This document shows positions 32,480 through 33,523 of a DNA stretch of 64,000 nucleotides, in pieces. How positions within the stretch are numbered: the first letter of the stretch is position 1; each line of letters starts with the position of its first letter. This stretch comes from a bacterium (lineage in GTDB: Bacteria > CLD3 > SB21), in the NCBI GenBank assembly GCA_008933615.1, contig WBUR01000002.1:92372-156371 (forward strand), read 5' to 3'. The position numbers were made by a program, and so were the translations under genes. The notes under the pieces were generated by a model. The model was not told where the DNA came from. It made no database searches and saw nothing but the letters and a program-made list of their open reading frames with translations.

Positions 32480-33523
32480 ATGAAAAAGAAAATTCGACTA
32501 ACGCAAACTGTTGAATGCGCCGGTTGAGCCAGTAAGATGAGTCCTCTTGATTTGAGGGCCGTTTTGGCAGGTCTGCCGAAATTCACAGATGATAATTTAT
32601 TGGTCGGAATGGAAACTTCCGACGACGCCGGTGTGTATCGTCTCGATGACGATACCGCGCTCATTCAAACTGTGGATTTTTTCACTCCGATTGTGGATGA
32701 TCCGTATACATTCGGCCAAATATCTGCTTCCAATGCGTTGTCAGATATTTATGCAATGGGAGGTAAGCCACTCACGGCTTTGAATATGGTATGCTTTCCG
32801 TCGAAAGAGTTGCCTATCGACGTATTACATAAAATTCTGGAGGGAGGAGCTGAGCGTATTAAAGCAGCCGGCGCTGTATTAGTAGGAGGCCATTCCATCG
32901 AGGACAAAGAAATTAAGTATGGACTCTCAGTTACCGGAATTATCTCTCCCAAAGATATTATAACAAATGCTAATGCAAAACCCGGCGATGTTTTAGTTTT
33001 AACTAAACCGATAGGTACGGGGCTGATCGCTACTGCGATCAAAAAAGGGGATGCTGCGCCATCGGACGTGAAAGAGATCGTACAGTCGATGATTCATCTG
33101 AATGACGGAGGTGCGGAACTGATGCGACAATTTAAGGCAAGCGCCGCAACCGATATTTCAGGTTTTGGCTTGCTCGGGCACGCATTTGAAATGGCAACCG
33201 CAAGTAGAGTTGATTTAACTATCATGGCGAGCCAAGTCCCGTTTTTTAAGAAAGCAAGGAAGTTTGCTGCTCAAAAGAAGTATTTAACGAAAGGAAACAA
33301 GTTAAATCGTCAATTAATAGGGGATAATATTATTATATCTAAAGCTATAGATGAGGACATGAAAAGACTTCTATATGATCCCCAAACATCCGGAGGGCTG
33401 TTAATTGCAGTTCAAAAACATCGGGCTGATGAATTGGTTGCCGGCCTGCGTAACTACGGCTACTTCTCGACTGGTATTATTGGCTTTGTAAGTGAAGGAG
33501 CGGGACAAATTATACTGGGGTAG
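32480..33523 (+). CDS. selD: Selenide, water dikinase, a selenoprotein (UGA read as Sec)
   Basis: SelD makes selenophosphate from selenide and ATP. The frame is open from ATG 32480 except for one in-frame TGA at 32525-32527, which lies exactly where family members have the catalytic Cys or Sec: the sequence reads E-C-A-G-U16-A-S-K19-M-S-P, with the essential Lys three residues later. Reading UGA as selenocysteine gives 347 residues, the normal family length; starting at the later ATG 32537 would lose the active site. Further motifs are QTVDFFTP, SDIYAMGG, VGGHSIED and DPQTSGGLL. A SECIS-like hairpin follows the UGA. The cell must therefore have SelA, SelB and tRNA-Sec elsewhere. Confidence 0.92.
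32541..32559 (+). promoter_or_regulatory. SECIS-like hairpin in selD
   Basis: Starting 13 nt after the UGA codon, GUCCUC (32541-32546) and GAGGGC (32554-32559) pair into a 6-bp stem with one U-G wobble and a 7-nt loop UUGAUUU. Distance and size fit bacterial SECIS elements, which sit inside the coding sequence just after the UGA and are read by SelB. The loop does not contain the GU doublet of the E. coli element. Confidence 0.6.

Follow-up and report, generated by a model that had tools for sequence, protein, structure and literature searches.

Selenophosphate synthetases (SelD) that carry selenocysteine (Sec) have been described in Pasteurellales, Clostridia, and Deltaproteobacteria, where a UGA occupies the catalytic codon, a Lys follows three residues later, and the complete Sec machinery is present (PMC4561486, PMC1794560). 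Such genes made up 19% of the SelD genes in a set of 223 genomes, with the Sec always at the same position (PMC4561486). For most bacterial SECIS elements the UGA and the apical loop are separated by 16 to 37 nt; the current model specifies a loop of 3 to 9 nt, a stem of 4 to 16 pairs, a G among the first two nucleotides of the loop, and a folding energy at or below -7.5 kcal/mol, and some putative elements break it (PMC13188914). The window analyzed here, a 64,000-nucleotide stretch of a bacterial draft genome, holds a selD gene of the same family that shares the catalytic UGA, the Lys at +3, and the complete machinery of these described systems. Its features are as follows.

32480..33523, + strand: selD, selenophosphate synthetase (selenide, water dikinase), 347 residues with a predicted Sec at residue 16
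32525..32527, + strand: in-frame UGA, read as Sec residue 16; aligned with Cys17 of Escherichia coli SelD and kept in relatives
32534..32536, + strand: codon of Lys19, three residues past the Sec and equivalent by alignment to E. coli Lys20

The selD frame runs from the ATG at 32480 to a TAG ending at 33523, and its sole interruption is the TGA at codon 16. Under translation table 11 the open reading frame begins instead at the ATG at 32537 and encodes 328 amino acids without the active-site loop, as the preliminary description had anticipated for a standard gene caller. That description had also proposed that reading through the TGA restores the N terminus of the family, and this was borne out: the read-through protein scored 389 bits against TIGR00476 (cut-off, 125 bits), with residues 6 to 315 covering positions 1 to 310 of the 311-position profile, N terminus included. 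The best matches among solved structures were the selenide, water dikinases 2yye and 3u0o. The latter, which we take to be E. coli SelD, can be aligned with the window protein almost end to end, with U16 opposite Cys17 and Lys19 opposite Lys20, which places the UGA at the catalytic Cys position with the conserved Lys three residues later, as had been claimed. The catalytic position and the Lys are therefore kept, the window protein having Sec where the E. coli enzyme has Cys. The gene model of SelD is corrected accordingly, and the restored MKKK start is also found in the two genus-mate loci L099 and L100. A RecN-like gene (RecF/RecN/SMC domain) lies 22 bases upstream of selD. On the 3' side comes, immediately, a gene for a DUF1684 lipoprotein-like product and then rimP, nusA, and infB; none of these neighbors was recognized as a selenium gene. 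Elsewhere in the genome (G000, a 97-contig draft that is 99% complete) the SelD-like matches were weak, at 25 to 33% identity with E values of 1e-9 or worse, as expected for relatives of the HypE, ThiL, and PurM type; thus, the gene at 32480 is the only SelD in the genome.

The aligned catalytic codon was compared across 110 SelD genes in the fetched loci, and it was TGA in 55, TGC or TGT in the other 55, and nothing else in any. The nearest relatives sharing the TGA codon are 84 to 86% and 50 to 56% identical to the window protein, the former being two genus-mates (G001 and G002); the same codon is TGA in G003, from another genus of the family, and in G007 and G008, from a sister family. The gene shows the marks of SelD, namely a full-length match that exceeds the curated cut-off and a Cys/Sec catalytic residue followed by Lys at +3, as well as those of a Sec-containing form, namely a UGA that is conserved in orthologs and swaps only with Cys codons, in a genome with selA, selB, and tRNA-Sec.

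The preliminary description had predicted complete Sec machinery elsewhere in the genome and had named its absence as grounds for abandoning the reading. All parts were found: selA on contig C11 (560 bits; cut-off, 268), selB on contig C6 (359 bits; cut-off, 242), and tRNA-Sec with a UCA anticodon on contig C4 (65 bits; gathering threshold, 47), the last also called by ARAGORN. SelD, selA, and tRNA-Sec are likewise all present in G001 to G003, G007, and G008, with selA in G001 and G003 represented only by fragments at contig ends. No SelD, no selA above the cut-off, and no tRNA-Sec above the gathering threshold were found in G004 to G006, which belong to the same family and are 91 to 100% complete. 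The whole Sec trait has thus been lost, or is lacking, in these three members of the family, and such a concerted absence is predicted by a dedicated Sec pathway.

A further UGA-containing selenoprotein, which had been suggested as a check, was also found. Using a joined query of selenoprotein-family stretches, a SelW-like gene of the Rdx family was identified on the same contig outside the window (G000:C2:16511-16738, equal to L149:1507-1734); it encodes 75 residues (C2:16511-16735) with the motif CVVU, its internal TGA is kept in eight other genomes, and it ends in AAG-TGA, with a normal TGA stop beyond the in-frame UGA. As TGA also ends ordinary genes, recoding in selD is site-specific. A hairpin, CCGCC-GGUCU-GGCGG, lies 3' of the SelW UGA with its loop 21 nt away, within the normal range; the stability of the 50 nt past this UGA was not unusual (z, -0.6). 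The SelW-like gene would itself escape a standard gene caller.

Taken at face value, a stop codon near the start of selD, with the N terminus broken by a standard gene call, could mean a pseudogene or a sequencing or assembly error in which TGA stands for TGC or TGT. The same TGA is present in the separate assemblies of five other close-to-moderate relatives and in many distant genomes, which excludes sequencing error, so that the preliminary description's own refuting condition of a read error fails; the rest of the selD frame is open and conserved, and the Sec machinery is present. We consider a pseudogene or an error extremely improbable, and equally so a changed code in which the genome reads TGA generally as Trp or another residue. 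Nothing was found in favor of a changed code; TGA terminates genes such as the SelW-like gene (seen for single genes), the SelD site has Cys and never Trp in other sequences, and a tRNA-Sec with a UCA anticodon exists. These three readings were accordingly rejected, on the conservation of the TGA in relatives and its use as the terminator of the SelW-like gene. The ATG at 32537, chosen by the gene caller, might alternatively start a short functional SelD without the active-site loop and with a role unrelated to Sec. This, too, is very unlikely, because the residues ahead of the UGA are conserved in frame among relatives, and the short form would have no residue for selenophosphate synthesis although no other SelD exists in this genome, which has retained selA, selB, and tRNA-Sec. 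The locus almost certainly encodes a SelD with Sec at residue 16, predicted to be inserted at the UGA by SelA, SelB, and tRNA-Sec together with an mRNA hairpin that recruits SelB. Insertion of Sec, activity of the enzyme, and the choice of the hairpin bound by SelB are what we infer from the sequence.

Two predicted hairpins follow the UGA.

32541..32559, + strand: hairpin 1, six-pair stem, loop UUGAUUU starting 19 nt past the UGA
32561..32582, + strand: hairpin 2, the proposed SECIS core, stem UUUUGGCA/UGCCGAAA, loop GGUC at 32570-32573

Measured against the bacterial SECIS model, hairpin 2 agrees in its loop (GGUC), stem (7 to 9 pairs), G, and energy (-7.6 kcal/mol) but not in its distance, as 42 nt separate the UGA from the loop in L098, L099, L100, and L103, the four SelD genes of the family. 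The distance of hairpin 1 is allowed by the model, but neither of its first two loop nucleotides is a G, and the same holds for the corresponding loop of L103 (UCUGAACU). Hairpin 1 can also be extended downward, to about 32528-32568, in competition with hairpin 2. It is possible, though less likely, that the read-through is real and that this nearer hairpin, in its short or extended form, serves as the SECIS in place of the GGUC hairpin. Its loop is in the usual range from the UGA, the stretch of 46 nt that begins at the UGA has a folding energy of -18.2 kcal/mol (z, -3.8), and a hairpin occupies the same place in L103, from another genus; however, the stem sequence there is different and pairs only in a shifted register. 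The top of the GGUC hairpin, by contrast, is kept letter for letter, its inner stem being invariant across the four family genes, and its outer stem shows two compensatory changes between genera (U-A to G-C and U-A to C-G) along with a U-G to U-A change, a covariation drawn from four sequences that really represent two lineages. Synonymous conservation of codons 17 to 36 is only mildly raised, with 6 to 13% of the windows along the gene being equally conserved. Hairpin 2 is, on modeled folds, the likelier candidate for the SelB site. It shares the GCA-GGUC-UGC stem end and GGUC loop with the SECIS of E. coli fdhF, the sequence of which was checked against E. coli genomes; the UGA-to-GGUC distance is only 18 nt in fdhF, whereas in the window selD it is 42 nt with a hairpin in between.

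To place this spacing among other SelD genes, perfectly paired stems whose loop has a G as its first or second nucleotide were scored within the 70 nt after the catalytic codon. A stem score of 14 was reached by 45 of the 55 Sec-SelD genes and 10 of the 55 Cys-SelD genes, against the 10 to 12% expected from codon-order shuffles, and the mean z of the folding energy was -1.17 for the former and -0.14 for the latter; as the sequences are related, P values for these comparisons are only indicative. Among the SelD genes L018 to L127, the loops of the SECIS-like hairpins of the Sec-SelD genes fall at discrete distances of 16 to 17, 20, 32 to 33, and 42 nt, and the SECIS signal therefore seems to have jumped between places within one gene. 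The 42-nt class comprises only the four SelD genes of the window's family, the Sec-SelD genes of other bacteria having the loop at one of the shorter distances. We tentatively suggest, as an idea somewhat short of an even chance, that the selD SECIS of this family moved downstream to 42 nt and functions there because hairpin 1, itself conserved, folds out between it and the UGA, giving a two-hairpin signal beyond the current model. The enzyme belongs to the long-described Sec-SelD type, and a variant is possible in the SECIS spacing alone. Such a long spacing would be a small exception to the SECIS rules, and selenoprotein finders could miss genes of this kind.

In the proposed pathway, SelD would make selenophosphate from selenide and ATP, and SelA would use it to convert seryl-tRNA to Sec-tRNA(Sec). 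SelB would carry the latter to the UGA, recruited by an mRNA hairpin past this codon, most likely the GGUC hairpin at 32561-32582, which the folding of hairpin 1 perhaps brings nearer, and Sec would be placed at residue 16. As the Sec of SelD is made from selenophosphate, the enzyme would depend on what it produces in order to be made, and the genome has no second SelD to start the cycle.

Sec formate dehydrogenase and selenouridine are the two uses usually held to maintain the Sec trait. Among the matches to the formate dehydrogenase alpha subunit in this genome, none has an internal stop, and no tRNA selenouridine synthase was matched in the genome, although the E. coli control was positive; SelD and SelW therefore appear to account for the use of Sec, within the reach of these searches. 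No stop was present in any of nine members of the peroxiredoxin/AhpC family or in the CCG-domain reductases. Among hits to the joined query (GPx, SelW, AhpD-like, ArsC, MsrA, MvhD/FrhD, rhodanese, and deiodinase-like), whose stretches were consensus-like and written from general knowledge, an in-frame TGA occurred only in the SelW-like gene, the frames of the MsrA and MvhD-like genes being uninterrupted. As the searches were family directed, the list is a lower bound; the lineage decodes Sec and has at least two selenoproteins. In a survey of Sec-decoding bacteria without FdhA, all had a Sec-SelD and most had the selenouridine trait as well (PMC1794560), whereas the present searches yielded no Sec FdhA and no selenouridine synthase.

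At G000:C57:9413-12597, genes of the MvhD/FrhD-like and CCG-domain (HdrB-like) types are near one another, in uninterrupted, non-Sec frames. Three other genomes have an uninterrupted SelD inside a frame of about 745 amino acids (L113, L118, and G053:C33:26310-27335), and for L113 and L118 the catalytic codon was verified to be one for Cys; such frames probably correspond to the known oxidoreductase-domain fusion. A SelD of this long-frame type coexists with separate TGA-bearing SelD genes in G038 and G053.
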